Assembly: GCA_025455065.1 (NCBI GenBank)
Contig: JALONG010000016.1
Location: 1 to 64,000 of the forward strand
From: Candidatus Kapaibacterium sp.
Lineage (GTDB): Bacteria; Bacteroidota; Ignavibacteria; Kapaibacteriales; UBA4661
Direction: 5' to 3'
DNA length: 64,000 nucleotides
Both the position numbers and the translations under genes were made by a program. The notes beneath the pieces are model-generated. The model saw only the letters and a program-made list of their open reading frames with translations, was not told where the DNA came from and did not search any database. This document shows, piece after piece, positions 7,401 to 57,362 of this stretch (within the stretch, counting starts at the first letter, position 1; each line of letters starts with the position of its first letter).

Positions 7401-8101
7401 AAAAACGGAACAGTTTCGATTTGTGGTGCGTTATTGGGTTCAATTCGTGCTTGTTGTAAGCCTGCGCTTGTGCCTATCCACAATGTGCCGATGCTGCTCT
7501 GGTGCTGCTTATGCTGCTGCTTATACTGCTGCGCGGATATTACTTGTGGGTCTGAAACAAAAAGGAGGGAATGAATTGTTGAGGAGGCGGGATGAGCTTT
7601 GTTGTCGTTGTTTTGAAAGGCGATAAAATTTCCATTGGCGAAGCGGTAAAGTCCGTCGTTGCTGGTGCTGCCAGCCCAAATCGCGCCCGAACTGTCTTGG
7701 CATAGACAATAAAATCCTGCTGAGCGAATACTCGGCACGGTTGAACGGTTAAACGCCGTAAACTGTGAGCCGTCGAACCGAGCAAGACCATTAAACGTTG
7801 CAAGCCATAAATAACGGTCACGGGATTGCAAAATATCCAGCACAGCCGTTGAAGGTGAGCCTTCGTCGGTACTCCATGAACGCAGCGTATATTGGGTGAG
7901 AAGTTTTTGCGGTGAAAGCCCTTGTGGAAGAAGTCTCAGGGGGGCGATAATAAGCAAACAACCAAGACACAGGAGATTACACCAATGACCCGCTCCCTTC
8001 TGTTCGTGGCATAACGAAGCGAGAGCAGACAGTATTCGGCTGACATAAACCTTTATCCGTTGTTGAAGCGAGAACATAACCATTGTCTGGAAAGTACACA
8101 A
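4442..8101 (-). CDS. Two-component sensor kinase with periplasmic beta-propeller
   Basis: A 1219-residue sensor of the reg_prop/Y_Y_Y class. A hydrophobic signal/anchor segment lies at about 39-58. From about 70 to 735 there are roughly 14 propeller repeats of the type DSxGxLWVGTxxGL (LWIGTSAGLQQA, LWVGTRGKGIYVL, IWVGTRKGLNVL). A Y_Y_Y domain follows at about 790-855 (IEFSYTGLSMMTPTKTRFRF, LEGFDTTWIDVG), then a TM helix at about 862-884 and a coiled coil. The HisKA domain contains MIRIVAHDLKNPLSSI, and a HATPase domain runs from about 1070 to 1190. Unlike the hybrid two-component systems of gut Bacteroides, it has no receiver or AraC domain, so its response regulator must be elsewhere. The N-terminus is uncertain: several Met codons occur in the first ten residues. 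The family usually senses polymers or their fragments; the ligand here is unknown. Confidence 0.93.
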   Translation of the reverse strand: MCTFQTMVMFSLQQRIKVYVSRILSALASLCHEQKGAGHWCNLLCLGCLLIIAPLRLLPQGLSPQKLLTQYTLRSWSTDEGSPSTAVLDILQSRDRYLWLATFNGLARFDGSQFTAFNRSTVPSIRSAGFYCLCQDSSGAIWAGSTSNDGLYRFANGNFIAFQNNDNKAHPASSTIHSLLFVSDPQVISAQQYKQQHKQHQSSIGTLWIGTSAGLQQARIEPNNAPQIETVPFFAGMQIWALHLDSAGNLWVGTRGKGIYVLSAKNHHVQPVASRFGTSANAVSFTQGRGDTLWVAGMEQGLGFIVSKHHITDKYHYTLEGASGAYFRRSVVRKVFTDRHRTLWIGMVNARLARYSNGLTDSFTLGDKLTNVEAISEDIEGNIWIGTYYTALTSLSDGKFTNYTTLEGLSNSLVHHIYKDRNGSFWIGTNKGLHHLRFSNGNRPIIRQFTLENKSLPDNTVRHIVRDKRGRLWIATFAGVVCWDGKRKKTYTVDDGLSYNEVRLVFEDNDGKIWVGTRKGLNVLEEKNGKMTITRYSRENMDLQHDYFLSITQDSKGTMWFGTDGGGVIAFRNGVFRNYTTSEGLPANVVFQVLEDSHGKLWFATVNGLARMDDERRGIFSAVGTKQGLSSAVIFDILQDNNDHFWLTTPDGVIMVSQKELEQCANGLIRTILFSRFTKADGMSATECTGASKAYFDAALGRAWFPTLGGVSVLDTRNVRRNTVIPAVYIEKITADNRVYSVYDSLLRISSPMRQSLYSSPLPSGTSPRNADTRNADTITLPAGTRSIEFSYTGLSMMTPTKTRFRFRLEGFDTTWIDVGTRRKAYYTNLPPNVYRFRVIACNNDEMWNTTGMDVYVNIEPYFFQTWWFLLVCAVLFTGIVYALFLLRVWQLRAQKKALLHLVEKRTKHIREQNEEILRQQQVLEEQARNIEIANSEILESNAGLQLANAQLHEISAMKNEMIRIVAHDLKNPLSSIILSSSTLERYTEKMSSEEIVTQIRRIRLVGERMTKIITDLLDIDALDSGTMKLDIACHHLAPLVAETLEELSGLAANKQIILHFADYSHQRCTMIDKRAVQQIVTNLVSNAIKFSPSETRIFVRIWNESPTQIRFSVQDQGPGITPEDTLLLFKKFTRLSARPTGGEHSSGLGLNIVKRLVESMDGTVWCESEAGKGATFIVELPSFTSETNGTSGTNGGLQTNGSSQNYGMQNVLVTNTLH

Positions 8102-8184
8102 TAATCACGTTCCAAATTACGGGAAATCCCCAATGCGTCCAACAAGTGGGTTGTGTGTTGCGAAATGGTATTATTGGCTGAGAT

Positions 8185-26140: not shown

Positions 26141-29100
26141 TTACACACGAACACCAATGACCAGCATATCATCAATCTGTTTGTGTTCTGTTCCCATCCA
26201 TGCCGCCATAGTTTCGTCGAGTTTGTTTTTCTGCTCTTCCGCGCTAAAGGTATGAATTTGCTGAAGCGTTTCAACGAATCGTTTCGATGAAAATTTCTTC
26301 CCTTTTTCGCCGCCGAATTGGTCTTTGAAGCCGTCGGATGTGAGGTAGAGCATGGTTTTTCCGGGTGGGGTGTCGTTCAAATTCACACTTTGATTGCTGA
26401 AAATTCTCTCGTCGGTTTCCGTTCCGCCAATCGGTTTTTTGTCGGCTTTTAATTCGACAAACTCACCATTTTTCATAACGTACAGCGAGTTCATAGCTCC
26501 GGCAAAATCTACGATGCGCTTCTTTTTGTCAATCATGCACAGCGTAATGTCCATGCCATCGCGGTTGTTTGTTTCGGTCTGACGCAAAGAGCGCTGTACG
26601 CCTTTGTGTAATTCCGAAAGCAGAGTGCCGGGCGTTGGTGTTCCGTGCGTGTTCACCACCTCATTCAACAGCGAGTTCCCGATAAGGCTCATAAATGCTC
26701 CCGGTACGCCGTGTCCGGTGCAGTCCACCGCCGCAATGTAGATGTGGTCGCCTTTGTCGCAATACCAATAAAAATCACCGCTGACCACATCACGTGGTTT
26801 GAAGAGAATAAAATAATCCGAAAGTGACTGACCGATATGGTCAGAATCCGGCAGCATCGCTGTTTGGATGCGCTTTGCATAGTTGATGCTGTCGGTGATG
26901 TGTTTGTTAAATTCCATGATAAGGCGCTGCTTGCGCTGCAATTCCTCGAACTGTTCGGCGTTACTGATAGCGATTGCGGCATAATTCGCCAGCGTCCGCA
27001 CGATTTCTACGTGGTTGGCGGTATAGGCATTGCGTTTGTAGCTCTGCACCGAAAGCGCACCTATCACGTCGCCGCGCACGGTGAGCGGTATGTAAATAAG
27101 CGATTTTGCATAATCCTCATCAATTTCCGGCATCATCCCTTCAAACGGGTTGATAGTTTTGCGGAAATCAGGAATGTAATTTTTTGCTTCTTTGTCGGCA
27201 TCTTGAATCACAATTTCTTTCCCGTTTTGAATACACCACACGGGAAATTGATTTTTTTCTGCCATATCACGCTCATAGTAAGGAAGCCTCATTCCTTTGT
27301 CTATCGCCATTGCATATTCGATTTTTTCTTTCCAAGGGCGGTAAAGACCAATGCCGAAAATTGTGGCATCCATGACCTCGTAAATGCGCTGGTAAATCGT
27401 TGTTACGATAGTTTCCATCGTAAGCGACGATGTGAGTTCTCGCCCGATACGACTCACAACCGCCAAACGCTCGTTTTTCTCTTTAAGTTCTCCGTTAGCG
27501 CGTTCAATTTCCTTGGCTTGACGGCGTACTTCTTCGGTGCGCTCATGGACGATACGCTCTAATTCTTCGTTGCGTTTTTGAATGCGGCTCAGGCGATAAC
27601 GGTAAAATGCAAATGCCGCCGCAAGCACGGCAATCACGCAGAGTGTAATAAACCAGGGTGTTTCGTAAAAATGCGGCTTCAAATAAAATGATGTTGCAAC
27701 ATCGGTTTCGCTCCAAACACCGTCGTTGTTGGATGCCATAACGCGGAAGCGATATTCTTTGCCGCGTGGAAGGCTTGTGTAAAATGCGCTGCGACGCGAA
27801 CCCGCATCAACCCAATCTTCGTCGAAGCCTTCGAGCATAAATTTGAAGCGCACACGTTCCGGCATAAGAATACTCGTGGCAGTGTACTGAAACTCGAATT
27901 TATCAATGCCCGGAGGCAGTTCGACAACTTTACCCGAACCGTCCGCACGTTCTACCATTGCTGTTGAATCCCCTTCAAAGCTGTCTTTGGTGGATGCGTC
28001 GGTGTATTGCAAGGGTGATACCCCCGGAAGCCTCAATAATGCTTCGTCAGCAATAACGCGCTCAATGATAACCGTTGGCGGGAGCGGGTTGTAAGGGATG
28101 GTGAGTGGCTCAACAACAGCAGCACCTTTGATTGTCGGATACCAAAACCGCCCGTCGCGGGATTTCCAAACGGAAGGCTGTGTGCCACCATTGCAAACAT
28201 TCGATTTTAAGCCGTCGGTAACGCTGTACGCAATGCAGGATAGGCGTTTTTCTCTGCGGTCTAAAACATCATTCAAGTGGCTTTTTCTCACACGGAAAAT
28301 GCCTTTGTTGCAACTCATCCAAAGCCAGCCTGCATCGTCCTCCTGAATCGAAAAAATGACATCGCTGTGCAAGCCCTGACGTGCTGTAATAGTGCTGAAT
28401 TTGCCGTCTTTAAGCCGCGAAAGTCCGCCACCTGAGCCAACCCAAATTGTGCCATCGCGGTCTTCATAAATTGACCAAACGTAATTGCTTGCAAGTCCTT
28501 CTCGAATCGTATATTTCGTGAACGAACCGTTTTTGAGAGCATTGATGCCGCCTCCGCGTGTGCCAAACCACATCGTGCCGCGTGAATCCTGCATTATGGC
28601 ATAAATCGTATTGCTACCAAGTCCGTCTTTGGTTGTATAGACCTTCATTGTAGCGGCAGTTGAATCTATACCCGCAGAACCCGCACCAATACTCATTTTT
28701 ACCAGTCCGTTATCTGTGCCAATCCACATAGCTTCATCGGAATCTTCGTAAATGGCTTGTACACGATTGCTGGGAAGCCCGTTATTGGTCGTGTAACTCG
28801 TCAGAACGCCGTTTTTCCTGCTTTGCAAGCCGCCACCGGTGCCAATCCAGAGTTTGCCGGAGCGGTCGCTCCAAAGCGAGGTAATGACGTTGTTGAGCAA
28901 ACCTTGTTCGGTGGTGAGATTTGTCCACGTTCCGGCAGAAAACATATTTAACCCGCCGTTAGTGCCGAAGTACATCGTGCCGTCGCCACCTTCCACAACC
29001 ACGTTCACGTTGTTGTGCGAAAGCCCATCTTTGGCGGTGTAGGTGCTGAAACGGCGGTCTCTAAATCTACCAATACCTCCGCCGTCTGTGCCGAACCAGA

Positions 29101-30112
29101 CAGCGCCTTCGCGGTCTTCCAAAACAGCAAACACCTCATCTGCGCCCAAGCCTTGTTGCGACGTAAAGGCGGAAAGCTGCCCCGCGCTTGTGAGACGATT
29201 CACACCACCGCCGTTTGTGCCAATCCAAAGCGTTCCTTCGCGGTCAAGCGAAAGTGAGCGTACATCGTTTTTGGTCAAGCCGTTTGTAGTATTGTAAAAC
29301 GCCGTAGCAGAGCCGTTCTCAACACGAAAAAGCCCGTCAGCACTACCCACCCAAAGTGTACCGTTGCGTGTTGCCAAAAGTGCGTGAACGCCGTCGCCAA
29401 CCAAGCCTTCATCGGGCGTGTAGGGTCGGAATTGCCCTTCAATCGCTACAAACGGCGTAAATTTCCCGTTTTCCCAATGATTCACACCGCCGCCATTTGT
29501 TCCAACCCAGATGCCGCCTTTGAGGTCGGAGGTAAGCGATAAAATTGTCGCTCCCGTCAAGCCGTTTTCGGTATTGTACTTCGTAAATTTCCCATTTTGC
29601 CACAGAGCCAAGCCGTTTTCCGTCCCAATCCAGACATTACCTTGCGTGTCTTCGCAAAGCGAAAAAATCACATTGTCCGGTAGCCCTTCTTTGACGGTGT
29701 AGAGCGTAAACGCGCCATTGCTGATGCGCAAAAGCCCGTTTTCCGTTCCCACCCAAAATGTGCCGCTTTTATCTTCCAAAAGCGCAAGGATTTCCGTGCT
29801 TTTGAGCGGCAAATTTGATTTATCAAACGTGACAAATCGCGCTCCGTCAAAGCGTACCAGACCTTCTGCTGCGCCTATCCACAAATAGCCGTCGCGTGTT
29901 TGGTACATCGTGCGGACGGCGCTTTGTTGGAAGCCGTTATCGCTTTTCCACGTGTCGAAAACGTATTGTGTAATCGGTTTTGTGGGGTTTAATCCGCGAA
30001 CTCGCTCCGTTACAACGGTTTCGGGTGTTTTTTGTGCAGTCGTAATTGCAATGCTGCCCGCAAAAGCAGCAAATATCAGGGCTGTAAGTATGAATAAACG
30101 ACGCAGTTTCAT
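26141..30112 (-). CDS. SiaA-like PP2C phosphatase with periplasmic beta-propeller and GAF
   Basis: A 1323-residue transmembrane phosphatase. A signal peptide (MKLRRLFILTALIFAAFAGS) is followed by about 14 reg_prop propeller repeats at about 42-665 ([27 protein letters not shown]). A Y_Y_Y domain lies at about 735-812 (FEFQYTATSILMPERVRFKF), then a TM helix at about 818-838 and a coiled coil. A GAF domain spans about 878-1040 (FGIGLYRPWKEKIEYAMAID). The C-terminal SpoIIE/PP2C domain runs from about 1074 to the end, with metal-binding SGDFYW, AVDCTGHGVPGAFMS and TSDGFKDQ. It precedes siaB and siaC on the same strand and so should act as the SiaC phosphatase, in place of the smaller HAMP-type SiaA of Pseudomonas. 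The open frame extends 58 codons further, but the signal peptide fixes the start at 30112. The same sensor is fused to a kinase and a chemoreceptor elsewhere in the window. Confidence 0.9.
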   Translation of the reverse strand: MKLRRLFILTALIFAAFAGSIAITTAQKTPETVVTERVRGLNPTKPITQYVFDTWKSDNGFQQSAVRTMYQTRDGYLWIGAAEGLVRFDGARFVTFDKSNLPLKSTEILALLEDKSGTFWVGTENGLLRISNGAFTLYTVKEGLPDNVIFSLCEDTQGNVWIGTENGLALWQNGKFTKYNTENGLTGATILSLTSDLKGGIWVGTNGGGVNHWENGKFTPFVAIEGQFRPYTPDEGLVGDGVHALLATRNGTLWVGSADGLFRVENGSATAFYNTTNGLTKNDVRSLSLDREGTLWIGTNGGGVNRLTSAGQLSAFTSQQGLGADEVFAVLEDREGAVWFGTDGGGIGRFRDRRFSTYTAKDGLSHNNVNVVVEGGDGTMYFGTNGGLNMFSAGTWTNLTTEQGLLNNVITSLWSDRSGKLWIGTGGGLQSRKNGVLTSYTTNNGLPSNRVQAIYEDSDEAMWIGTDNGLVKMSIGAGSAGIDSTAATMKVYTTKDGLGSNTIYAIMQDSRGTMWFGTRGGGINALKNGSFTKYTIREGLASNYVWSIYEDRDGTIWVGSGGGLSRLKDGKFSTITARQGLHSDVIFSIQEDDAGWLWMSCNKGIFRVRKSHLNDVLDRREKRLSCIAYSVTDGLKSNVCNGGTQPSVWKSRDGRFWYPTIKGAAVVEPLTIPYNPLPPTVIIERVIADEALLRLPGVSPLQYTDASTKDSFEGDSTAMVERADGSGKVVELPPGIDKFEFQYTATSILMPERVRFKFMLEGFDEDWVDAGSRRSAFYTSLPRGKEYRFRVMASNNDGVWSETDVATSFYLKPHFYETPWFITLCVIAVLAAAFAFYRYRLSRIQKRNEELERIVHERTEEVRRQAKEIERANGELKEKNERLAVVSRIGRELTSSLTMETIVTTIYQRIYEVMDATIFGIGLYRPWKEKIEYAMAIDKGMRLPYYERDMAEKNQFPVWCIQNGKEIVIQDADKEAKNYIPDFRKTINPFEGMMPEIDEDYAKSLIYIPLTVRGDVIGALSVQSYKRNAYTANHVEIVRTLANYAAIAISNAEQFEELQRKQRLIMEFNKHITDSINYAKRIQTAMLPDSDHIGQSLSDYFILFKPRDVVSGDFYWYCDKGDHIYIAAVDCTGHGVPGAFMSLIGNSLLNEVVNTHGTPTPGTLLSELHKGVQRSLRQTETNNRDGMDITLCMIDKKKRIVDFAGAMNSLYVMKNGEFVELKADKKPIGGTETDERIFSNQSVNLNDTPPGKTMLYLTSDGFKDQFGGEKGKKFSSKRFVETLQQIHTFSAEEQKNKLDETMAAWMGTEHKQIDDMLVIGVRV

Positions 30113-30424
30113 TGAGAGCTTTGAAAAAAGTTGGTGAAGTCCGTTTAGGCAACGCCTTAGCGTGATAGAGAACTTGTCAAAAAAAGAGCAGGGCGCAAAA
30201 TACCTGCTTTGAAACTCGCTCAAAATAGTATTCTTTCGTGAATTTTGTACAGAATTTTGGTGTTTTAGGGGAAAAAGTTTTGGCAAGAAAAATATTTTCT
30301 CTTTTGCTGTGAGAATATGCTGGAAATTGAGGAAAATTGCGATATTTGTGCTTGAACTTCAAAAAAAGTTTTAGCAATAATTCTCACGCATTTGGTATTG
30401 TTCAACTTCGGGGAAAAAGGAAAT
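30113..30424. other. 312-bp divergent intergenic region
   Basis: This AT-rich spacer separates the leftward phosphatase/siaBC operon from the rightward 7TMR-DISM kinase gene and must hold promoters for both. It contains a small hairpin (AGCAGG at 30187-30192, CCTGCT at 30203-30208) and a direct repeat of GAATTTTG near 30240-30260. I see no convincing -33/-7 pair, RNA gene or conserved small ORF. Confidence 0.6.
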
Positions 30425-44907: not shown

Positions 44908-46092
44908 TTACAACGCTGCTGTTGGTAATTCAATAAAAAACGTCGCTCCTTCTCCTAGCGTTGATTCACACCAAACTCTTCCGTGCATATATTCGACAAT
45001 TTTTTTGACAATAGACAGCCCCAAGCCGGTAGAATCTTCGCCTCCCGTCGGGCGAGCGGTCAAGCGTGAGAATTTCCCAAAAAGTTTTTTTCTGTCTTCT
45101 TCCGAAATGCCGGGTCCTTCGTCTTTAACAGCCAATTGAACAAGATTTGACGGGCTTTTGGAGATTGTTATGAAAATATTTTTGTCACGAGGTGAATACT
45201 TGACTGCGTTAGAAACAAGGTTTTCGATAACCTGAATTGTCAAGGATTCATCAGCATAGACGACGTTTTCACTGTCGCTCTGAAAATGGAGATTGATATT
45301 TTTTGCTGCCGAAGGTTTGGCGTAATCTTTCAGCACGTATTCTGTTGCCGAAGCTATATTAAATCTCACTGCTTGGATGTTCATCGCGCCGCGTTCCAGC
45401 GCGTTGATGTCCAACAAATTACGAATAATTGCAAACATTCTGTTCGATGTTTTGACAATACTTTTCAGCATCATTGAACGCTGTTCTTGAGGCATATTCG
45501 GCTCATCGTTACACATTTCGGCGTATTCACGAATGACTTGCAGAGGGTTTTTCAAATCGTGCGCGACAATTCCTAAAAACTCATCTTTTTCCTTATCCAA
45601 CTCTTTCAATTTCTGAAGTGCTTCGGCAAGTTCGATATTTCTGGTCATTATATCATAATGCTCAAAGCAGAGCCGGACCGCCTCCAAGAGTTCGTCGCGT
45701 TGCCAAGGTTTCGTCATAAACCTGTACACATTGCCCAGATTGATGCTGTCAATAATGTCCTGCACATCGGTATAACCCGTCAAAATCACGCGCACAGCTT
45801 CGGGAGCGAAAGGGATGCTCCGCGCAAGGAACTGTGCGCCCGACATACCGCCCATGCGTTGGTCGGCGATTATGACTTCCGGTTGCCACTCTCCTGCAAG
45901 GATGTCCATTGCTGCTTCGCCGGACTCAGCCGTTTTCAAATCATAGTGTGCTTGAAAAATATCCGTCAGCACCATAAGCAACATTGTTTCATCATCCACA
46001 ATCAGCAATTTCCTTTTCGAGATTGCTACGGAATGAAGTGGTTGTGGGGATAACTGCTGAGCCGTTCCGGGCGGTGTGAGATTCAGTTTCAT
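44908..46092 (-). CDS. Receiver domain fused to histidine kinase
   Basis: The 394-residue protein has an N-terminal receiver domain (about 28-145) with acidic pocket VDDE (Asp33, Asp34), phospho-acceptor Asp77 in IIADQRMGGMSG, LTGYTD and the lysine in FMTKPW. A short coil leads to HisKA (EFLGIVAHDLKNPLQVI) and a HATPase domain (NLVSNAVKYSPRDK, STGLGLSIVKKI). It has no TM segment. This input-receiver type of soluble kinase is usually driven by phosphotransfer from another kinase. Its ATG overlaps the TGA of the upstream 7TMR-DISM kinase by four bases (ATGA), which implies translational coupling and a shared pathway. No DNA-binding output is attached. Confidence 0.93.
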   Translation of the reverse strand: MKLNLTPPGTAQQLSPQPLHSVAISKRKLLIVDDETMLLMVLTDIFQAHYDLKTAESGEAAMDILAGEWQPEVIIADQRMGGMSGAQFLARSIPFAPEAVRVILTGYTDVQDIIDSINLGNVYRFMTKPWQRDELLEAVRLCFEHYDIMTRNIELAEALQKLKELDKEKDEFLGIVAHDLKNPLQVIREYAEMCNDEPNMPQEQRSMMLKSIVKTSNRMFAIIRNLLDINALERGAMNIQAVRFNIASATEYVLKDYAKPSAAKNINLHFQSDSENVVYADESLTIQVIENLVSNAVKYSPRDKNIFITISKSPSNLVQLAVKDEGPGISEEDRKKLFGKFSRLTARPTGGEDSTGLGLSIVKKIVEYMHGRVWCESTLGEGATFFIELPTAAL

Positions 46093-48281
46093 GCGTGATT
46101 AACCTTCGTAAAACGTATGGTAAATGTTGTGCCTGAGCCAAGTTCTGATGCTACGTTCAAGTGCGCACCGTGTTTATCCAAAATTCCCTTACTGATGCTG
46201 AGTCCCAAACCGCTATTTCCTGCGCCTTTGGTCGTGAAAAATGGGTCAAACATTCGCTCCAAAATCGGTTTGGGTATTCCCGGACCGTTATCGCGGACAG
46301 CAAGTGTATATGCGCTGTCCTGAGCAATTTCCCGACCTTCGAGAACAATGCTCGTTGCTCCGGCTTGGGCAGCATTCACCAGCAAATTTAACACTACTTG
46401 ATTGATTTCCCCAAAGTTTGCTTCAATCGAACTATTCCCTTGAAAGTCTCTTATTACCTGCACTTCTTTGAATTGATAGCGAAACATTTCGATTGTAGCA
46501 AAAAGTTCTTCCTGCAAATGCCCAAGTTTATTGCCGACTTCCTGATGTTTGGTGAAATTGCGCAGCGAAGCCACAATGTGTTTTACACGAGTAGAACCGT
46601 CCTTCGCAATAGTAATCATGCGCTTTGCATCATTTGTCAATGTACTAAATTTGTCCGCTTCCGCAGATTGTTTGTCCTCGTCACTTAATAACGAAAAAAA
46701 GAAGGTCTGAATATCCAGAAGAGTAATCTGCAACTGCTCCAAAGCCGCATAAACAGCCGCATTCGGGTTGTTGATTTCGTGCATCACGCCGGAAGTTAAA
46801 AGCCCCACAGCCGCAACGCGCTCGCTTGCCACCAACTGTGATTGCGTTTCTTTCAAATCAGTCAGTGCTGCGTCTAATTCCAATACAACCTCGTTCAAAT
46901 GTGCATTGGCGAGTTCAATTTCTTTCGATTGCTCTTCCAAAATACTGTTTTGGCGGCTAATTTCCATGTTTGCCGAAGCAAGTTCTGCATTGCGATAACG
47001 CTCTTGCTCCCGCATTTTTTCGGCAAGTTCACGCTCTTGTCGCTCATGGATGACCTGTTCCCGCATTTGCGTTAATCGCCCCGAAAGGGCAAAGGAAAAA
47101 AGCAGTGTTTCACCAACGCCAAAGGTGCTGCGAACAAGGTTTTCATACTGCACACCAAGAATTTGTATGAACATTTCCAACAACGTATATCCAAGCATGG
47201 TAAGTGTGTAAATACGTGTCGGTAGGTTGCGGGATTTGATGAGTTCGATAGAAAAAATACCCAGAGCAAGCACTCCGCCAAAGCCGAAAACAAGGGGACG
47301 AGCATTGATATAATAACGCCCTAAGCCAAGTGGTATGAGGAGAAAAACCAAGCCTATCATCACAATCACAACGACCATAAGGCGGTCAAAGAGAACTGGT
47401 AATCGGTTTTTGACATCTAAAAAAACACGTGCGAATTGGAGAAAAATAGCGTAAGTACTCAGCCGAACAGCCGCATTGAGACCGGGTTTCCAGCTTGTCT
47501 CTAAAAAACGCTCCGTAAGCACCGTGCAAGCAAGCAGCGTCAAAACAAAGAGCGAAGCGATATGAATGATGTACCAGAAATACACTTTGTCCCGCACGAT
47601 AACAAGCGGCACAAGGTTGAACAATCCCGCGAAAAGCAACATTCCCAGCAAAATAAACGCAGCAATATCCAAAAGCCGTGAGCCTTCGGAGAACCATTCT
47701 GCGGGCGTTATGCGGAAAATCGGTACTGCTCCAAGATATATCGCACGAATTTTCACGTAAAACGTGTATGCACCGTCGTCAGCCAAAACAAGCGGAAAGT
47801 TTGCATCTTTCGTTTGCATCGCCCGAATGCGCATTGAGGTCATTTCACCGGAATGGGAGACGAGGTAGTCATTCGTATCCAAGGTCAGTTTTGATGCGGT
47901 GTTTGGTGTGTAGAGCGTTACGGAATCCATGCGAGAATTTCCCACAAGCAGCACCCAATCCAGCAATTTCGTGTTGCGCACGGTAAACCGCACCCACACA
48001 GCTTCTTGACCTCGTACCCTCAGCGTTTTTGCCCCAACATTTGTGAATTGACCACGCTCCGAAGCCCGTAAAACCTCGTGAAATGCGAGGTTTCCCGTTT
48101 CATCGTAAAGAAAACTGCACGACGAAAACATATCGAAGTTACGCATAGAATCTAGCGTTACGGTTGTCTCGTTGAGTGATTGCTGCGTTGTGCCTTGAGC
48201 GGATAATTGCTGAATAAGACCGCCACAAAGCATCACGCAAAGCAAGCATTGGCGCTGTATATGACGAAAAACGTGATTCAT
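46089..48281 (-). CDS. 7TMR-DISM sensor histidine kinase (HExN type)
   Basis: A 730-residue receptor kinase. A signal peptide (LLCVMLCGGLIQQLSAQ) is followed by a DISMED2 extracellular domain at about 45-185 (EAVWVRFTVRNTKLLDWVLL). A seven-helix DISM domain lies at about 190-390 (AAFILLGMLLFAGLFNLVPL), then a coiled coil. The phospho-acceptor region is VMHEINNPNAAVYAAL, and the HATPase domain has RDNGPGIP and NSGLGLSISKGI. The HEINNP core differs from the HDLKNPL core of the other five kinases. The frame is open to 48419, but that part reads into a REPIN repeat; I start at the Met before the signal peptide (Met at 48317 is an alternative). It overlaps the next gene by four bases. Confidence 0.9.
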   Translation of the reverse strand: MNHVFRHIQRQCLLCVMLCGGLIQQLSAQGTTQQSLNETTVTLDSMRNFDMFSSCSFLYDETGNLAFHEVLRASERGQFTNVGAKTLRVRGQEAVWVRFTVRNTKLLDWVLLVGNSRMDSVTLYTPNTASKLTLDTNDYLVSHSGEMTSMRIRAMQTKDANFPLVLADDGAYTFYVKIRAIYLGAVPIFRITPAEWFSEGSRLLDIAAFILLGMLLFAGLFNLVPLVIVRDKVYFWYIIHIASLFVLTLLACTVLTERFLETSWKPGLNAAVRLSTYAIFLQFARVFLDVKNRLPVLFDRLMVVVIVMIGLVFLLIPLGLGRYYINARPLVFGFGGVLALGIFSIELIKSRNLPTRIYTLTMLGYTLLEMFIQILGVQYENLVRSTFGVGETLLFSFALSGRLTQMREQVIHERQERELAEKMREQERYRNAELASANMEISRQNSILEEQSKEIELANAHLNEVVLELDAALTDLKETQSQLVASERVAAVGLLTSGVMHEINNPNAAVYAALEQLQITLLDIQTFFFSLLSDEDKQSAEADKFSTLTNDAKRMITIAKDGSTRVKHIVASLRNFTKHQEVGNKLGHLQEELFATIEMFRYQFKEVQVIRDFQGNSSIEANFGEINQVVLNLLVNAAQAGATSIVLEGREIAQDSAYTLAVRDNGPGIPKPILERMFDPFFTTKGAGNSGLGLSISKGILDKHGAHLNVASELGSGTTFTIRFTKVNHA

Positions 48282-48380
48282 GGAACGTAGGTAACGTAAA
48301 AGGGTAACAATAGACATTATACGGATTAGCTGTTTATGGCAATAGAAACTCCTGTAAAGCGCATCAATACTGATGTTCAG

Positions 48381-48456
48381 TGGCACAGACATTTTTGTCT
48401 GTGCGTAGTCCTTGAACATAGCGCTGATACTCGCACAGGCAGAAATGCTTGTGCCA
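48381..48456. repeat. REPIN-like palindromic element, copy 2
   Basis: TGGCACAGACATTTTTGTCT at the left and the complement TGGCACAAGCATTTCTGCCT at the right form inverted arms about 28 bases apart. The arms match copies 1 and 3 except that TGGC replaces TAGC. It lies between the TonB receptor gene and the 7TMR-DISM kinase gene. Confidence 0.82.
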
Positions 48457-48501
48457 ATGAAAGGTTCTCAATGCTTCATCTGTATAATGACTAATAGCAA
48501 T

Positions 48502-50673
48502 TCAAAACTTTACGGTTATCCCGCCATAGAAGGCGCGTCCGGGAAACATCGGTAAAGAATTGATACGACGTGTAACATCAGGAATCCAGATATTGTCAGC
48601 ATTCAAAAGGTTTTCTCCGCGTAGGTTGAGGATAAAATGCGGTAAACCTCGCAGGTCTGCAATTTCGGAAATATCAAGGTTTACCTGAGCGCTGAGAAGG
48701 CTGAATGCGGTTGCGGCGGGATTTACCACCGGTGTGGGCATAGCCCCCATTTGCATTGGTGGAATCAAAGGCGCAGCATTGTACACATTAAAAAGGCTCA
48801 CTGCAATGCCGTTTTTATTGTCATAGCCAAAGCCTGCTTTGAGCATAACCGACGAAAGCAAGGTTATATCGCGTGAAGAATGTCCGTCTTGCGTTCCTCC
48901 GTTGGTCTGGTACGACACCGAACCAAGAATATAGACCTCGTTGAAAGGAGCGTATTTTGCCTCAAACTCCGCGCCTTCAAGTTGGAAGGTGAGATAATTT
49001 TGCGTAACGTTATTTGGTGGCTGTCCGGGAGGTGCGATATTACGCGGCGCGATAAGATTCGATTGCCATGTCCGATAATACACTGCTGCAATGCGCATAT
49101 TTGCTTGTTCCCAGAAAATTTCTCCGTCAAGGGATTCATTGGTCTCCGGGCGCAAGCGAGGATTCCCTCTAGCATTCATGGAAAGCGTAAAATTCTCAAA
49201 CCCTGAAGCAGCCCTGAAAGCCTGACCGTAAAAGGCTTTGATACCAAATTCAGAGGTGATGTTCCAAATTGCAGCCACGCGCGGCGACACATCCGCATCA
49301 ATGTTTACAGCCTTATTGAACTGCGCTCCCACGCGGAGTTTCAGGTTTTCAAGCGGCTGCCATTGCGCTTCGGCGTAGGCACTCCACCAAATTTGGTTGT
49401 ACTCCGGCACAAGCACATTCCCTGTTGTGGCAGATGTACCAATACCGCTCCGAGCGTGAGCCACGCCGCCAAGCAATAACTGAAGCGTCTTTTGGGGTTT
49501 GTAGGCGATGGTCAGTTCTGCAAGCGCGTCATTCGATTGCAAAATTTCCACGTGCCGCGTGTTGTAGAGATTCAGCGTACCATTCACAGAGGCGCTTAAA
49601 ACCTCGCTAAACTCGTGTGTATAGCCAATGTCGGCGTTGAGGGTGCGGTTTGTCAGCAGTATCTGTGGGCGACGCGCCTCCGGTCCAAGCGTTGCGGCGG
49701 CATAGTCCGTCGCAAAAATTTGTGCCTTGAAACCGCCCAGCGAAGCCGTCAGCATCCCACTAAGCGAGCGTTGGTAAGGATTATAGGTAATCCGGGCGGG
49801 CGGGCGATTACCAATAGGTTGCAGAGAAAACGGCACATTCCACGTTGTGTTATTGTTATTGTAGAGCAAACCCGCATCAATTCTTGCTTCACCGAGTGAT
49901 GTTGGAAGTGAAACTCCCACATTTCCCGTAGCTGAAACGGTTCCGTTGCCACCGCCTAGTATGCTCAAAGACGCTCCATTACTTGTTTTCGTGATGATAT
50001 TCACTGTTCCCGTAAACGCATTTGTGCCATACAACACCGAACCGGGACCGCGCAAAACTTCAATCTGTTCCACTGAAGCAAGCGGAAAGCCGTTCAGTGC
50101 TTGTGCGTAGATTCCTCCAAACAGCGATTCCCGAAGCGGACGACCGTTTATCAAAATCAAAATATGCTTAGACGTAATGGTGCGATATAAATCGCCCCGC
50201 ATCGTGATATTTTCTTGATAAAGCGTCGTTCCGAAAAGTTGAATAGAAACCACGTAGTTCAGCGCGTCGGCAAGTGTTCGTGCGCCAAAAAGTTCCATTT
50301 CTTTTGCCGTGATGACCGAGATTACGCCCGGAGCATCGTTCAGCGTTTCATTCGTCTTAGAGGCAGTATTGACGAGGAGTTTCAGCAGTTCATCCACCGA
50401 CGAAACGCCTACGATGGAAGATAATTCTGTGAGTTCTTCCAGCGATAACGCGCTTAATTCCTCGAACTTCATGGAAAGAATTTGCTTGCGAGTTGGTTTC
50501 GTTTTGAATACCCGCTCTTCAGCCGCTTGTTTGCTTGCTGGTGCGAGAGTCTGTGCGAAAAGTGTGTCCGAAAAACTATGAAGAACAAAACTCATCACAA
50601 AGAAACACAACATACCTCTGAGCCTTACAAAATAAGGCTTGATGGGCAGTATGCTATGATGAACGTTTGTCAT
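48502..50673 (-). CDS. TonB-dependent receptor, second of tandem pair
   Basis: A 723-residue outer-membrane receptor. After a signal peptide (MLCFFVMSFVLHSFSDTLFA) there is a helical pre-plug segment (TRKQILSMKFEELSALSLEE and VDELLKLLVNTASK). The plug domain shows APGVISVITAKEMELFGART, ILILINGRPLRES and VEQIEVLRGPGSVLYGTNAF. A 22-strand barrel of about 500 residues ends with the aromatic terminus FYGGITVKF. No TonB box is obvious. It starts 15 bases after the stop of a paralogous receptor, so both are co-transcribed. Receptors with this pre-plug region are often encoded beside YfiR proteins, as here. The cargo (siderophore, vitamin or glycan) cannot be told. The first Met (50673) is used; Met21 is an alternative. 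Confidence 0.92.
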   Translation of the reverse strand: MTNVHHSILPIKPYFVRLRGMLCFFVMSFVLHSFSDTLFAQTLAPASKQAAEERVFKTKPTRKQILSMKFEELSALSLEELTELSSIVGVSSVDELLKLLVNTASKTNETLNDAPGVISVITAKEMELFGARTLADALNYVVSIQLFGTTLYQENITMRGDLYRTITSKHILILINGRPLRESLFGGIYAQALNGFPLASVEQIEVLRGPGSVLYGTNAFTGTVNIITKTSNGASLSILGGGNGTVSATGNVGVSLPTSLGEARIDAGLLYNNNNTTWNVPFSLQPIGNRPPARITYNPYQRSLSGMLTASLGGFKAQIFATDYAAATLGPEARRPQILLTNRTLNADIGYTHEFSEVLSASVNGTLNLYNTRHVEILQSNDALAELTIAYKPQKTLQLLLGGVAHARSGIGTSATTGNVLVPEYNQIWWSAYAEAQWQPLENLKLRVGAQFNKAVNIDADVSPRVAAIWNITSEFGIKAFYGQAFRAASGFENFTLSMNARGNPRLRPETNESLDGEIFWEQANMRIAAVYYRTWQSNLIAPRNIAPPGQPPNNVTQNYLTFQLEGAEFEAKYAPFNEVYILGSVSYQTNGGTQDGHSSRDITLLSSVMLKAGFGYDNKNGIAVSLFNVYNAAPLIPPMQMGAMPTPVVNPAATAFSLLSAQVNLDISEIADLRGLPHFILNLRGENLLNADNIWIPDVTRRINSLPMFPGRAFYGGITVKF

Positions 50674-50687
50674 TCTTCAAAAAACGA

Positions 50688-52754
50688 TTAAAATTTGACA
50701 ATAATGCCACCATAAATGCCGCGTCCGGGCGAGAGTGGTAGCGCATTGGTATTCGCTCCCGGATTCGGATACCACTTTTCTTCATTCAACGCATTTTCAA
50801 TACGAAGATTCAGAATAATATGTGGTAACCCTGACAAATTCAGGAGTTCTACAATGTCGGCATTGATGTTTGCGGTCAAAAAGTGATAGGGGCGCGGAAT
50901 CGGATTCGGGGTGAAATTATTTGTATTTCGCAATCCGTATTCACCCGTATAGATGTAAAAAATGCTTGCAGACAGCCCGTCGTGGTTATCGTATCCTGCG
51001 CCAAATTTTACGGTCAGATTCGGTGTTGGGGCGGAAGTAGCAATTGTACTATTGAGCAAATTCCTTTGCAACAGCACCGAACCAAGCAGATACAGGTCAT
51101 TCGACGGTGCAACTTTGCCTTCAAATTCTATGCCCTCCATTTGATACTGCCCTTGATTAACAGGTGTATTGCGGTTTCCGACGCGCCCCGTGGGAGTAAT
51201 AACATCGGTTTGCAACCCATTGAAGTATGCCAGAGAAAGGCGCGTTTGCGAGGTTTCCCAGAACAATTCCGCATCAATCGTCGCAACTTTTTCAGGGCGT
51301 AAATTCCTATTTCCGACTGAAACCGGACCATCCAAAAACATTTCAAACGCAGACGGGGCACGGTATGCCTGACCGTACAATGCTTTGAGACCAATTTCGG
51401 GTGTGAAATTGACAATAACATTCAAGCGGGGAACAATGTCGAAATCCGTCAATTCCGGCTTGTTTACTTGCACTCCGGCACTCAGGCGCAGTGCCTCTAA
51501 TGGCTGCCATTGCGCTTCGGCGTAGCCGGTAAACCAAAGTTGATTATACGGAGCAATCAGTATAATAGCGCTGTTCGCAGCGTTCACGATTGTTCCTTGC
51601 CGCGCATTAAGAAAGCCGCCCAGCAGGAATTTGAAATTTTGATTGGGTTCGTAATAATTTGTCAGTTCCAAAATAAAATCTTGAGCATTGGTGCGGCTTT
51701 CGTAAGCGGATTGGTAGTGCTTTGCCGTAAAATTCAGCGACGACGAAAACGCATCGGTAAATTGATGTTTGTACCCCGCATCAGCACTGACGCTCAGGAT
51801 AGTATGTTCAATCGTCGGAAAAACAGGCGTAATGCCCAAAACTGTTGCGGAGTAATTGGTGATGGAGGCTTGTGCGTGGAAACCGCCTATTTCTGCCGTT
51901 ACTAAGCCGCTCAGTGCCTGACGTGAGGGCGTATAGGTGTTGGTAGTGAGCGGTACATTCCCGGCTGCACGAGCGCGATAGGGGACGCTCCAATCGTTGC
52001 GATTGTGGTAATATGCCGCTGCGCTCAATTTCAGGTCACCGAGTGTAGTCGGAAGGTTCACTCCGCTTTGTGCTGAAGCCGTTATCGTACCAAATGAACC
52101 TGCACGAGCCGTAAGTATGGTGTTGAAAGTGGATTTGGTGATAATGTTTACCGTGCCGGTAAATGCGCCTGTTCCATACAACACCGAGCCGGGTCCGCGC
52201 ACTAACTCAATCCGCTCAATCGCATGAATCGGAAAGCCCGTCAGAATTTCGGTGTAAATCCCTCCGATGAGTGTTTCCCGCATCGGGCGACCATTGAGCA
52301 GAAAAAGAACGTGATTGTTGGTCAGACCTTGCGAGGTTTCACCGCGCAGATGGAGGTTTTCGGGGTAGAGAAAATTTGTACCGAGATTCACCGAAACCAT
52401 GTAATTCAGCACATCTTCGAGCGTTTGTGCGCCAAAAAGTTCGATTTCTCGTGCTGTAATCACCGACACAATGCCGGGCGCGTCGTTTAAGCGTTCATTT
52501 GTCTTGGAAGCAGTATTGACGAGGAGTTTCAAGAGTTCATCAACAGATTGCACACCGACAATCGCTGACAATTCCGTGAGTTCTTGTAGCGACAAGGCGC
52601 TTAAATCCTCGAACTTCATCGCAAGAATCTGCTTGCGTGTGGGTTTGGTTTTGAAAGAATGGTTGGTTGTTTGTGTAGTATCTTGCTGCGCGGGAAGTGT
52701 TGGTGAGGCATAGATTGTCGCAAAACTTATCGTAATAAGTACCAGAAACAGCAT
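50688..52754 (-). CDS. TonB-dependent receptor, first of tandem pair
   Basis: A 688-residue outer-membrane receptor paralogous to the next gene. A signal peptide (MLFLVLITISFATIYA) is followed by the same pre-plug helix (TRKQILAMKFEDLSALSLQE; VDELLKLLVNTASK). The plug is APGIVSVITAREIELFGAQT, VLFLLNGRPMRETLIGG and IERIELVRGPGSVLYGTGAF, and the barrel ends IYGGIIVKF. The pre-plug segment is more alike between the two receptors than the barrel strands, which suggests a shared partner and different ligands. The open frame runs 74 codons further up to 52976, but this crosses a REPIN repeat (52810-52937) and is not coding in my view. The YfiR-like gene lies upstream on the same strand. Confidence 0.92.
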   Translation of the reverse strand: MLFLVLITISFATIYASPTLPAQQDTTQTTNHSFKTKPTRKQILAMKFEDLSALSLQELTELSAIVGVQSVDELLKLLVNTASKTNERLNDAPGIVSVITAREIELFGAQTLEDVLNYMVSVNLGTNFLYPENLHLRGETSQGLTNNHVLFLLNGRPMRETLIGGIYTEILTGFPIHAIERIELVRGPGSVLYGTGAFTGTVNIITKSTFNTILTARAGSFGTITASAQSGVNLPTTLGDLKLSAAAYYHNRNDWSVPYRARAAGNVPLTTNTYTPSRQALSGLVTAEIGGFHAQASITNYSATVLGITPVFPTIEHTILSVSADAGYKHQFTDAFSSSLNFTAKHYQSAYESRTNAQDFILELTNYYEPNQNFKFLLGGFLNARQGTIVNAANSAIILIAPYNQLWFTGYAEAQWQPLEALRLSAGVQVNKPELTDFDIVPRLNVIVNFTPEIGLKALYGQAYRAPSAFEMFLDGPVSVGNRNLRPEKVATIDAELFWETSQTRLSLAYFNGLQTDVITPTGRVGNRNTPVNQGQYQMEGIEFEGKVAPSNDLYLLGSVLLQRNLLNSTIATSAPTPNLTVKFGAGYDNHDGLSASIFYIYTGEYGLRNTNNFTPNPIPRPYHFLTANINADIVELLNLSGLPHIILNLRIENALNEEKWYPNPGANTNALPLSPGRGIYGGIIVKF

Positions 52755-52809
52755 GAGATATTGTGGAAACGCAAAAAACGTTTGACTAGAATATGTAAAA
52801 CGCTCTTCT

Positions 52810-52937
52810 GTAGCACAGACATTCTTGTCTGTGTCCTTAACGCCGAAAGGCGTACATACAAGAAGTTTCCGATAAAAAAACTGTTGAAGATAATACGCTT
52901 CGCGTATAAATGGCACAGACAAGAATGTCTGTGCTAC
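52810..52937. repeat. REPIN-like palindromic element, copy 3
   Basis: The outer arms are GTAGCACAGACATTCTTGTC and its exact complement (GACAAGAATGTCTGTGCTAC), 128 bases end to end. The interior holds two small hairpins, ACGCC-GAAA-GGCGT and ATACGC-TTC-GCGTAT. It sits inside the putative operon between the YfiR-like and first TonB-receptor genes. Confidence 0.9.
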
Positions 52938-52972
52938 AAATGAAGTCTTGGGGAGAAAGTGGCAAATGGGAT

Positions 52973-53500
52973 TCATTGACCGCCCCCTTCCACGACGGTC
53001 GAAAGCCGCAATAAATCGTCCTGCATCTTCAAACCGACGGCTTCGGCAGCTTTTTTATTCACTTCAAATTTTTTATCACCGCTCGGCAAAATACTGATGT
53101 GGCTTCCTTCCCGCGCCATTCCTAAGCCTTTGGTGATGACCAACACAGGTTTTGAGCGCACGGCATCCAGCACACGTTGAAGTTTTTTGCTGTATTGGTC
53201 GGGAAGAAAAATGACGTGGCACGAGGAAAGACCGGAGGTTTCGTCAAACAGGCGTACTTTGATTGTCTGTTCACCCACTTTTTTCCCCGTGAGTGAACGC
53301 TCAATTTGTGCAGCAATATCGGGACTTCCTACAACCCCAATAAGATATTCACCCGACAAACGGTCTGCCGGAAAGCGCACCAATGCTGTCATCTTGAGGA
53401 TATAGAGCGATTCAAACAAGCCCTGCTGCGCAGAGATACTGAATCTTCCTGTGTGGAACAAAACAAGTGAAAGTAGAACTATAAGAAGCCGTTGTTTCAT
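52973..53500 (-). CDS. YfiR-like periplasmic protein (DUF4154)
   Basis: A 175-residue protein with a signal peptide (MKQRLLIVLLSLVLFHTGRF) and the YfiR/DUF4154 pattern. This includes LKMTALVRFPADRLSGEYLI at the N-terminus, GVVGSPDIAAQIERSL, LSSCHVIFLPDQYSKKLQRV, VLVITKGLGMAREGSHISIL and the C-terminal KFEVNKKAAEAVGLKMQDDL. In Pseudomonas, YfiR is a periplasmic repressor of the diguanylate cyclase YfiN. In many other bacteria YfiR-like proteins are encoded with TonB receptors and sensor kinases, as here, and their role is less clear. The frame is open upstream from a GTG, but AGGG before the ATG at 53500 and the signal peptide set the start. It is probably the first gene of the receptor operon. 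Confidence 0.82.
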   Translation of the reverse strand: MKQRLLIVLLSLVLFHTGRFSISAQQGLFESLYILKMTALVRFPADRLSGEYLIGVVGSPDIAAQIERSLTGKKVGEQTIKVRLFDETSGLSSCHVIFLPDQYSKKLQRVLDAVRSKPVLVITKGLGMAREGSHISILPSGDKKFEVNKKAAEAVGLKMQDDLLRLSTVVEGGGQ

Positions 53501-53726
53501 ACTCACCCTAAAAAAAGTAGTAATAGCGCGGTTTACAGCCACAACAAGCAGTAATGAATCTGCCAAAATACAACGAAGTCTTTGCTTTGCCAAACAAGAA
53601 ATAGCGAGTGTGTTTTCTTGGAAAGCATAGCCAAGAATCAAGAAAAAACCTTGCACCGCGTGAAAACTTTTCGCAGATTCGCGCCAATCATTGTGTGTGA
53701 AGTATTCGCTATTCTCAAGGAGAGGA

Positions 53727-56700
53727 ATGAGGATGAAAATGATTGTTCAAAAGAAAAGTCAAGAAATAGTCGTTGTATTCTTGTGGTTCGTGGTGATGCT
53801 TTTTTGTGGACAAGGAGTAAGCGAAGCACAGGAGAAAATCCAACGAACCTCACAAACACTCAATCCCACGAAAGCCATGACGCAATATCATCACGACGTT
53901 TGGTCGCGTGATGAGGGACTGCCGTCGAATAGTATTTTGACATTGCATCAAGCATCGGACGGATACATTTGGTTCGGCACGTTTGACGGTTTGGTGCGGT
54001 TTAACGGCATCAACTTTACGGTGTTCAGCAAGGCAGTTACCGACGGTATTAACAATAACGGAATGTGGAGCATCGTCGAGACGCAGGAAAAAGGTCAATC
54101 GGTGCTATGGATAGGCACAAATGGGGGCGGGCTGTTGCGGTATGCAAATGGCGTATTTACGACCTTTGGCGTAAAAGAAGGGCTTCCCGCCGATGTTGTT
54201 TTGTCGTTGCGTGTCGCTTCGGACGGTACACTGTGGATTGGGACAAGGAAAGGTTTAGCACGGATGCAAAACGGCGTGATTACTGCCTTCGGAAAAGAGC
54301 AGGGCGTTCCGGCAGCACCCGTGAATGCACTTGTGGAAGACCAATCGAAAACACTCTGGATTGCATCGGCGCAAGGATTGTTTCAATTTGCCGGAGGCAA
54401 GGCACAAAGCGCTTTTCAAGGCATTTCGGGAAGTGATTCCCTTCTGAAAACTCCCGTCAAAGCCTTGTTTGAAGATTCACGCGGAACATTGTGGATAGGA
54501 ACACTTGGAAAGGGCTTATTTGCTGCAAAAGACGGTAGGAATGCTCAATCGCTGGAGCGTATAACAACGGCAAACGGGCTTGCCGACAACCGCATTCAAG
54601 CGCTCACCGAAGATGCCGCAGGAACGCTGTGGATAGGCACAACGGGAGGGCTTTCAAGGCTTCGTGTCGGTGAAAATGTAATAGCCAAAACGCTTGACAA
54701 TTATACCAAAAAAGAGGGTTTGACCGACAATCAAGTTTGGTCGCTTATGGCTGACCGCGAAGGCAGTCTCTGGGTTGGGACGTATCGTGGGGGATTACAT
54801 CGCTTCAAAAACGGGAAATTTCTCACGTACACCACGCAAGAAGGATTGGTGGACGATTACACCTACGCAGTGCATGAAACCTCGCGTGGCGAACTGTGGA
54901 TAGCTACAGCCGAAGGCGCAAGCCGCTTTGCAAAGGGAACGTTTACGAATTTTACCAAAGCAAACGGTTTGCCGGACAATATGGTGCGCAGCATCACCTC
55001 AAGTGCCGATGGTGAAACGGTTTGGTTGGGGACATATCAGGGGTTATGCCGCTTGCAGGGCGAAAAAATTACAGTGTTTTCCACCAACGAAGGATTACCG
55101 GAAAACCGCGTCAGAACGCTCTTTCTTGATGGTGAAGGAACATTGTGGATAGGCACAAACGCTGGTTTTGCGCGGCTTCGTGGCGGTGCATTGGAAACAA
55201 TTACCGATGCAAACGGCGTTTTGAAAGGCACTTCGATTATCGGTATTGTTCCTGCGAAAGACGGTTCGTTGCTTATTTCTACCGAAGGCAAGGGTTGGTG
55301 CCGCTTTCAGAATGGTAGCATTGTTGAGCATTTGACGACTAAACAGGGCTTGGCTTCAGACGTGGTGATGTGCTCTTTTCAGGATGCCGACGGCACGGTG
55401 TGGATTGCGACCAATGCAGGCTTTTATCGTTGGAAAAACAAGGTTTTATCGGCTCTGACGCTGAAAGATGGCTTGCAAAGCGAATCTGTCTATACGATGT
55501 TGGAAGACAAGCAAGGAATGTTCTGGCTTGGGGGCAACGACGGGATTCAACTTGTAGTAAAGCAGGATTTGAACACTATTGCCGATGCAAAAGCCGCGAA
55601 TCAAGCAGTGAAGCCATTTTCGGCGCGACTCTTTGGAAAGTGGGACGGTATGAAAAACAGCCAAGTAAGCGCACCATCGCTTGCTTGTGCGACTCGGAGC
55701 GGGATGTTTTGGATTCCGACGCTCAAGGGCATTGTGGGCATTGACCCAAGCAATGTGCAGTATAATCCTTTGCCGCCTCCGGTCAAAATTGAGCGATGTA
55801 TCACTGAGCGCGATACGGCTTTAAGCAGCGTAAATACTGCTTTTGCAGCCGGAACAACCCGTTTTGCCATTGAGTACACGGGGCTTTCCTATCTTGCGCC
55901 GACGCGAGTGCAGTTTCGGGTGAAATTGGACGGTGTTGATGAGGATTGGCAGGACGTAGGAACGCGCCGCGAAGCGCTCTACATGAATCTTGCGCCCGGT
56001 TCTTACACTTTTCGCGTCCGCGCAGCCAATAACGACGGGGTTTGGAACGACGAAGGCGCTGAATTTACGTTTGCGTTGCAGCCGTATTTTTACCAAACAT
56101 GGTGGTTTCGTGGATTGCTTTTGATTGGTGTTATTGCTTGTGGTTTTGCTGCTTACCGATACCGAGAAAACCTTGCTGCAAGGAGGGAAGGCGAGTTACT
56201 TGCTCTTGTGAATGAGCGCACACAAACTATTACCGAAGAAAAAGAAAAAACCGAGTTTGCCCTTGCCGAAGCGCAAAACCTACGACAAGCGGCAGAGCGC
56301 TTGCAGCAACACGCAGAGGCGAAACGCTTGTACCTGAGCGAAAGTGTGCAGTATATTTTGCAGGCGCTGGATGAAGTCGCACAAGGAAATTTAGCCATGC
56401 AATTAGAAATCGCTGAGGCTGCAAACACAAGTATTGATGCGGGTAACAGCGATGTGAACGGTGACATTCACGACCTTTCCGAGGGCATCAATCAAACTAT
56501 TTCGGTCATGCGGGAAATTGTTGCCGGAGTAATGGAAGCATCGGCTTCGGTAGCGGATTCTGGGGAAAATATTTCGCGTTCCGCACAGGTGCTTGCCTCC
56601 TTTGCACAAGAGCAAACGCGCAATGCAGGAACCGTTACAACGTTGATGCAATCTGCTGCGGAGGAGATTGCGCAAAACGCTTCCAGCGTTCAAGCCTCGT

Positions 56701-57362
56701 TGCTTATTGCTTACGATGAGCGGAAAATTGCGCAAGAAGGCGAGAGGAATGTAAACCACACCGTTGAGAAAATCCACGAAATAGCGCGGCTTGTGGAGCG
56801 GTCTTCGGGTAATGTGGCAGAATTAGCGGCACTGAGCGACCATATCAGTGAAATCACCGAAACGATTCAAGGAATAGCCGACCAAACAAACCTTCTGGCG
56901 CTGAATGCTGCGATTGAAGCTGCCCGTGCAGGCGAGCAGGGGCGCGGTTTTGCGGTGGTTGCCGATGAAGTGCGCAAACTTGCCGAAAATACTGCCAAGG
57001 CAACCAAGCAAATTAGCGTAACCATGCGTACAATACAGCAGGAAATCGCGTCCGCCGTTACATCGCTTGCCGAAGGAAAAAAACAAATGGAAGAAGGAGT
57101 GCGCCTTGCAGAGCAGACCAGAGGGACGCTTCAGCGCGTGGTGCAAAGCGCCGACGAAAATGCCAAAGAGATGATGCGTATTTCGCAAATGAGTTTATCG
57201 CAATCGGAACGAAGTGCGCAAAGCCTTGAAAGCATAGAATCTATGCGCTCTGCAACGGAACGCGCCGCGTCGGGCATTAACGAAATCGCCACAGCCGCAG
57301 AAAATCTCCGTTTGCTCACCGAAGCAATGCAAAAGCAAGTTGCGCGGTTTTCGTTGGAGTAA
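53727..57362 (+). CDS. Chemoreceptor with periplasmic reg_prop beta-propeller
   Basis: The 1211-residue protein joins a two-component-type sensor to a chemotaxis output. A signal peptide ([20 protein letters not shown]) is followed by about 14 propeller repeats at about 48-660 ([39 protein letters not shown]). A Y_Y_Y domain lies at about 711-788 ([20 protein letters not shown]) and a TM helix at about 790-812. A coiled coil with a HAMP-like unit ([15 protein letters not shown] ... [12 protein letters not shown]) leads to a full MCP signalling domain, with tip [20 protein letters not shown] and [16 protein letters not shown]. No kinase or receiver is present. AAGGAG before the ATG at 53727 sets the start. 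It is divergent from the YfiR-receptor operon. It probably reports a polymer-type ligand to CheA/CheW; this is inferred from the domains. Confidence 0.93.

Follow-up and report, generated by a model that had tools for sequence, protein, structure and literature searches.

A conserved, uncommon chemoreceptor design joining a Reg_prop/Y_Y_Y propeller sensor to an MCP signaling domain in Candidatus Kapaibacterium

Gene and domain architecture

The window analyzed here, a 64,000-nucleotide stretch of contig JALONG010000016.1 from Candidatus Kapaibacterium sp. (assembly GCA_025455065.1), carries on its forward strand a single uninterrupted open reading frame of 1,211 amino acids (Table 1), which starts at an ATG with an AAGGAG a few bases 5' of it and closes with a stop codon at 57360 to 57362. 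The encoded protein runs from an N-terminal hydrophobic segment through Reg_prop repeats, a Y_Y_Y domain, a transmembrane (TM) helix, a coiled coil, and a degenerate HAMP-like unit to a full methyl-accepting chemotaxis protein (MCP) signaling hairpin. Pfam matches to Reg_prop (2e-59, in 10 stretches at a relaxed threshold), Y_Y_Y (6e-15), and MCPsignal (6e-42) are each far above the Pfam cut-off, and together with the open frame they bear out the first-pass annotation, which had read the frame as continuous from a signal peptide to an MCP tip. Thirteen blade motifs of the LW[IV]GT type recur at a spacing of ∼42 residues, with a 14th recognized by eye near residue 660, and 14 such motifs fit two 7-bladed propellers. 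Hydropathy supports the TM segment in all 11 aligned homologs and, with the N-terminal hydrophobic segment, gives a layout with a predicted periplasmic sensor. MCPsignal is the sole output after the TM helix; histidine kinase, receiver, and AraC domains are all absent, so the protein is not a hybrid two-component sensor (HTCS).

Table 1. Features of the Reg_prop/Y_Y_Y-MCP receptor gene, in window coordinates
Feature	Residues	Coordinates	Strand	Basis
Whole gene, Reg_prop/Y_Y_Y-MCP receptor, 1,211 aa		53727..57362	+	Open frame, Pfam, orthologs
N-terminal hydrophobic segment (signal peptide or anchor)	1-36	53727..53834	+	Hydropathy
Two 7-bladed Reg_prop beta-propellers	44-690	53856..55796	+	Pfam PF07494, motif spacing, AF2 model pLDDT ∼90, match to 4a2l/4a2m
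Y_Y_Y domain core	722-782	55890..56072	+	PF07495
Transmembrane helix	793-810 (approximate)	56103..56156	+	Hydropathy in 11 homologs; helix in model
Coiled-coil linker	814-872	56166..56342	+	Pairwise alignments; homology to sister histidine kinases stops in or just after the linker (residues 843-884)
Putative degenerate HAMP-like unit with inserted loop	873-932 (approximate)	56343..56522	+	Alignment to HAMP-like region of paralogs; no direct detection
MCP signaling domain	997-1175	56715..57251	+	PF00015
Hairpin tip (CheA/CheW contact region)	1047-1087	56865..56987	+	Near-invariant in 11 homologs; 88% identity among orthologs

For the HAMP-like unit named in the first-pass annotation, alignment with paralogs suggests a putative unit with an inserted loop that would follow ∼60 residues of coiled coil rather than adjoin the TM helix; Pfam itself returns no HAMP match here, even with the threshold relaxed to E = 1, and in 7 of the 11 aligned homologs it matches HAMP weakly (best 1e-5). 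The CheA/CheW contact tip is intact over 31 residues and near-invariant in the same homologs. The hairpin keeps its colinearity with PcaY_PP all the way to the C terminus and, relative to the Escherichia coli serine receptor, has a 14-residue gap on the N side, which together suggest a hairpin of the 40-heptad type. Because most of the genome's MCPs have the same distance from tip to C-terminal end (141 residues), the receptor may share an array with them. A strict methylation pattern, [ASTG][ASTG]xx[EQ][EQ]xx[ASTG][ASTG], had no match in the four full-length orthologs, the pattern being approximate and missing from many other MCPs of the genome as well. Set beside canonical chemoreceptors (PcaY_PP, 6s18; Tsr, 1qu7; the Thermotoga MCP, 2ch7), the protein has the same MCP hairpin and conserved tip but differs in its ectodomain, ∼750 residues with propellers where theirs is a small helical or Cache domain, in a putative HAMP that is degenerate and displaced from the TM helix, and in the absence of the strict methylation motif.

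Elsewhere in the window, positions 1 to 1356 (forward strand) encode another MCP, open at the contig start and with two HAMP stretches, and the reverse strand encodes two more large Reg_prop/Y_Y_Y proteins at about 4445 to 8105 and about 26144 to 30359, with open frames of 1,220 and 1,405 amino acids. Upstream of the receptor gene and divergent from it, positions 46089 to 53656 (reverse strand) hold genes for a YfiR-like protein, two paralogous TonB-dependent receptors, and a 7TMR-DISM histidine kinase, a group that matches the NCBIfam models TOL_0243/TOL_0244 below their cut-offs.

Conservation and distribution

Orthologs ∼70% identical to the window protein cross the TM/coiled-coil junction in four other species of the genus (G002, G005, G006, and G007), that of G002 losing its C terminus to a contig end; in a further genome (G001) the two halves of the ortholog lie on separate contigs. 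Identity among orthologs is highest in the sensor (72 to 79%) and the tip (88%), and no internal stops occur in those recovered. A group of paralogs (group B, e.g., L010), ∼35 to 37% identical and with the same domain order, is present in all eight species of the genus; it forms a separate clade in both the sensor and the tip trees, and the members examined carry the strict methylation motif. The first-pass annotation had raised the concern that an assembly or sequencing join might have brought a propeller gene and an MCP gene together. Apart from the draft state of the genome (131 contigs), nothing was found that speaks for such a chimera. Because independent orthologs in separate assemblies cross the TM helix and coiled coil, chance and chimera are both excluded as sources of the architecture, and with a paralog of the same architecture in every member of the genus we consider the probability of a chimera negligible.

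Among 391 genomes of the class, the full-length architecture was found in the genus and in two further genomes (G122 and G572), and among 396 genomes of the phylum in the genus and G122; both counts are lower bounds, since scoring was confined to the top two candidates of each genome and distant fusions (such as those of group C, below) would escape. Treponema saccharophilum (WP_002704105.1, on plasmid pTS2) and two near-identical metagenome-assembled genome (MAG) records have the architecture as well; its spread outside the phylum is known from plasmids and one pattern scan. The Treponema protein likewise combines Reg_prop, Y_Y_Y, and MCP in one chain, but it is only 26% identical overall to the window protein, both its sensor and its tip take other positions in the trees, and its record names the propeller part alone. 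On a second T. saccharophilum plasmid (NZ_AP025289.1, 52882 to 55089), a related propeller sensor (38.7% identical) belongs to a protein whose annotation reads adenylate/guanylate cyclase domain-containing, a further case of output swapping.

The propeller-MCP architecture is uncommon but not unique, and it occurs in several lineages. A search of mostly open-access literature gave no description of it, in keeping with the earlier remark that no characterized example was known; the first-pass annotation had held that its proposal would fall if the architecture were already common and characterized, and what was found is an architecture that is uncommon and, in the open literature, uncharacterized, though shared by several lineages. 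The receptor is a real, conserved, and uncommon chemoreceptor design.

Origin of the fusion

The sensor tree places the window group as sister (100/98) to proteins from another family of the phylum, and both sister-clade proteins scanned have HisKA and HATPase_c at their C-terminal end; pairwise alignment places the end of homology to these kinases at residues 857 to 884, or at 843 for a third. The tip tree instead groups the window proteins (97/90) with L142, an MCP of the same genome in which two hydrophobic segments flank a TPR array, and with L151, a Y_Y_Y-like MCP that ends at a contig edge. Group B, group C (L085/L086), G122, the Treponema protein, and the L047 and L058 MAG proteins are all placed elsewhere. 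The AU test rejected a common origin for the window group and group B (p = 0.001); constraining the two into one clade cost 80 log units. The fused label requires six changes on each tree, and in the last sensor tree five are forced by starred branches, although such label changes do not separate gain from loss. On the evidence of these trees and of the orthologs, the union of propeller and MCP is real and conserved and arose more than once.

Among 24 sampled Reg_prop sensors of one genome, the outputs include 15 kinases, 3 cyclases, 2 SpoIIE phosphatases, and 2 MCPs. Because kinases are the usual output in this genome, repeated swapping of kinase outputs would be the simplest reading of the trees, with kinase to MCP as the presumed direction. 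The original observation of a chemotaxis output fused to a Reg_prop/Y_Y_Y sensor, a type that ordinarily feeds kinases, has held up.

Ectodomain fold and candidate ligand

Reg_prop/Y_Y_Y sensors usually turn genes on in the presence of polysaccharide-derived sugars, and one of them, the Bacteroides HTCS BT4663, a sensor of heparin/heparan sulfate, has a solved structure. An AlphaFold2 model of the window ectodomain (pLDDT ∼90) fits two 7-bladed propellers, and Foldseek ranked the BT4663 periplasmic sensor (4a2l/4a2m) first among its matches (TM-score on target up to 0.82), followed by BT3049; sequence searches led to the same BT4663-type structures. Of the modeled cytoplasmic/MCP part, which is of low confidence, its helical character alone was used. 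The two sensors share a double 7-bladed Reg_prop propeller followed by Y_Y_Y but differ in output, with histidine kinase, receiver, and AraC domains in BT4663-type proteins and an MCP hairpin in the window protein. Relatives of this ectodomain bind specific oligosaccharides, as measured by calorimetry (PMC3243724). By analogy, the ligand of the window receptor would be an oligosaccharide; the polymer gradient proposed in the first-pass annotation is likewise conjectural.

No ligand or sugar-utilization locus could be tied to the window gene. We also considered a conserved gene neighborhood as a clue to the ligand and dropped it: a YfiR-TonB pair lies ∼4 kb from the G005 ortholog in another arrangement and is not beside those of G006 and G007.

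Chemosensory genes and proposed function

The genome (G000, 99.5% complete) contains 49 MCP matches, one of which (G000:C36:31235-31774) has an in-frame TGA and is possibly a pseudogene or a sequence error. Five proteins contain a CheW domain, two of them CheA, and CheA, CheW, CheR, CheB, CheY, and a CheZ-like protein are all present. The main che cluster consists of cheW, a HEAT protein gene, cheR, cheY, a cheZ-like gene, cheA, and cheB, and a second cluster comprises cheA, an MCP gene, cheR, a receiver-CheD fusion (L080:3583-4632), and an Hpt-receiver protein gene. Neither FliG nor a PilT-family ATPase was matched in the genome with models that were positive in controls, leaving a flagellar or type IV pilus output unsupported. 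Swimming along a gradient, as raised at first pass, is hence unlikely, even though the genome has so many MCP matches and a pair of che clusters. Two GldM models also gave no match, one of them silent in its controls, and divergent homologs may have escaped both. Since parts of the type IX secretion system (T9SS) are present (SprA and 144 C-terminal sorting tails), gliding is possible even with GldM undetected.

We consider it probable that the window gene encodes a transmembrane chemoreceptor-type protein in which a BT4663-like ectodomain has had its kinase output exchanged for an MCP, so that ligand binding would change CheA activity. The architecture, its conservation, the modeled ectodomain fold, the conserved tip, and the che genes are the observed ground for this explanation. 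The receptor would have arisen from a Reg_prop histidine kinase whose output was swapped for an MCP, keeping a periplasmic double propeller and Y_Y_Y domain. A ligand in the propeller region would most likely displace the paired ectodomains of a dimer relative to one another; the single TM helix, the coiled coil, and the HAMP-like unit would carry this displacement to the MCP hairpin and thence to CheA, probably that of the main che cluster, with motility as the presumed final output. The lack of a strict methylation motif in the orthologs, a HAMP below detection, the low confidence of the modeled MCP part, and the absence of any identified motility motor in the genome count against this explanation.

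Some chemosensory pathways control processes other than motility, and the receptor might couple to CheA with secretion, attachment, extracellular matrix, or gene expression as its output in place of taxis. The missing FliG and PilT-family ATPase in so complete a genome, the undetected GldM, and the Hpt-receiver protein and receiver-CheD fusion of the second che cluster all fit such an output, which we nonetheless regard as unlikely, if deserving of serious weight: the complete cheA-cheW-cheR-cheB-cheY-cheZ-like set and the number of MCP matches are typical of taxis, the T9SS parts keep gliding available, and the GldM result is softened by the uninformative control and the chance of divergent homologs. 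The same missing methylation motif and degenerate HAMP could also mark a drifting receptor, one that is still incorporated into arrays but has lost adaptation or sensing and acts as a decoy or constitutively. This we consider very improbable, as sensor and tip are the best-conserved parts of the protein among orthologs and the recovered orthologs are free of internal stops. Returning to the chemoreceptor with an exchanged output, a bolder and distinctly doubtful extension is that HTCS-type sensors have repeatedly been rewired to arrays, and that a bacterium with neither flagella nor type IV pili would use such receptors, lacking canonical methylation sites, to steer T9SS-type gliding or another surface behavior along polysaccharide breakdown products.

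Implications

The case for recurrent fusion goes beyond the one example originally observed, in a receptor each half of which is well known. From the repeated unions and the varied outputs within one genome, it is evident that a single input module has been connected to many outputs. Chemoreceptors gain a class of sensor for whose relatives structures have been solved and oligosaccharide ligands measured, which makes the coupling of ligand to CheA across a double propeller open to domain-swap tests.
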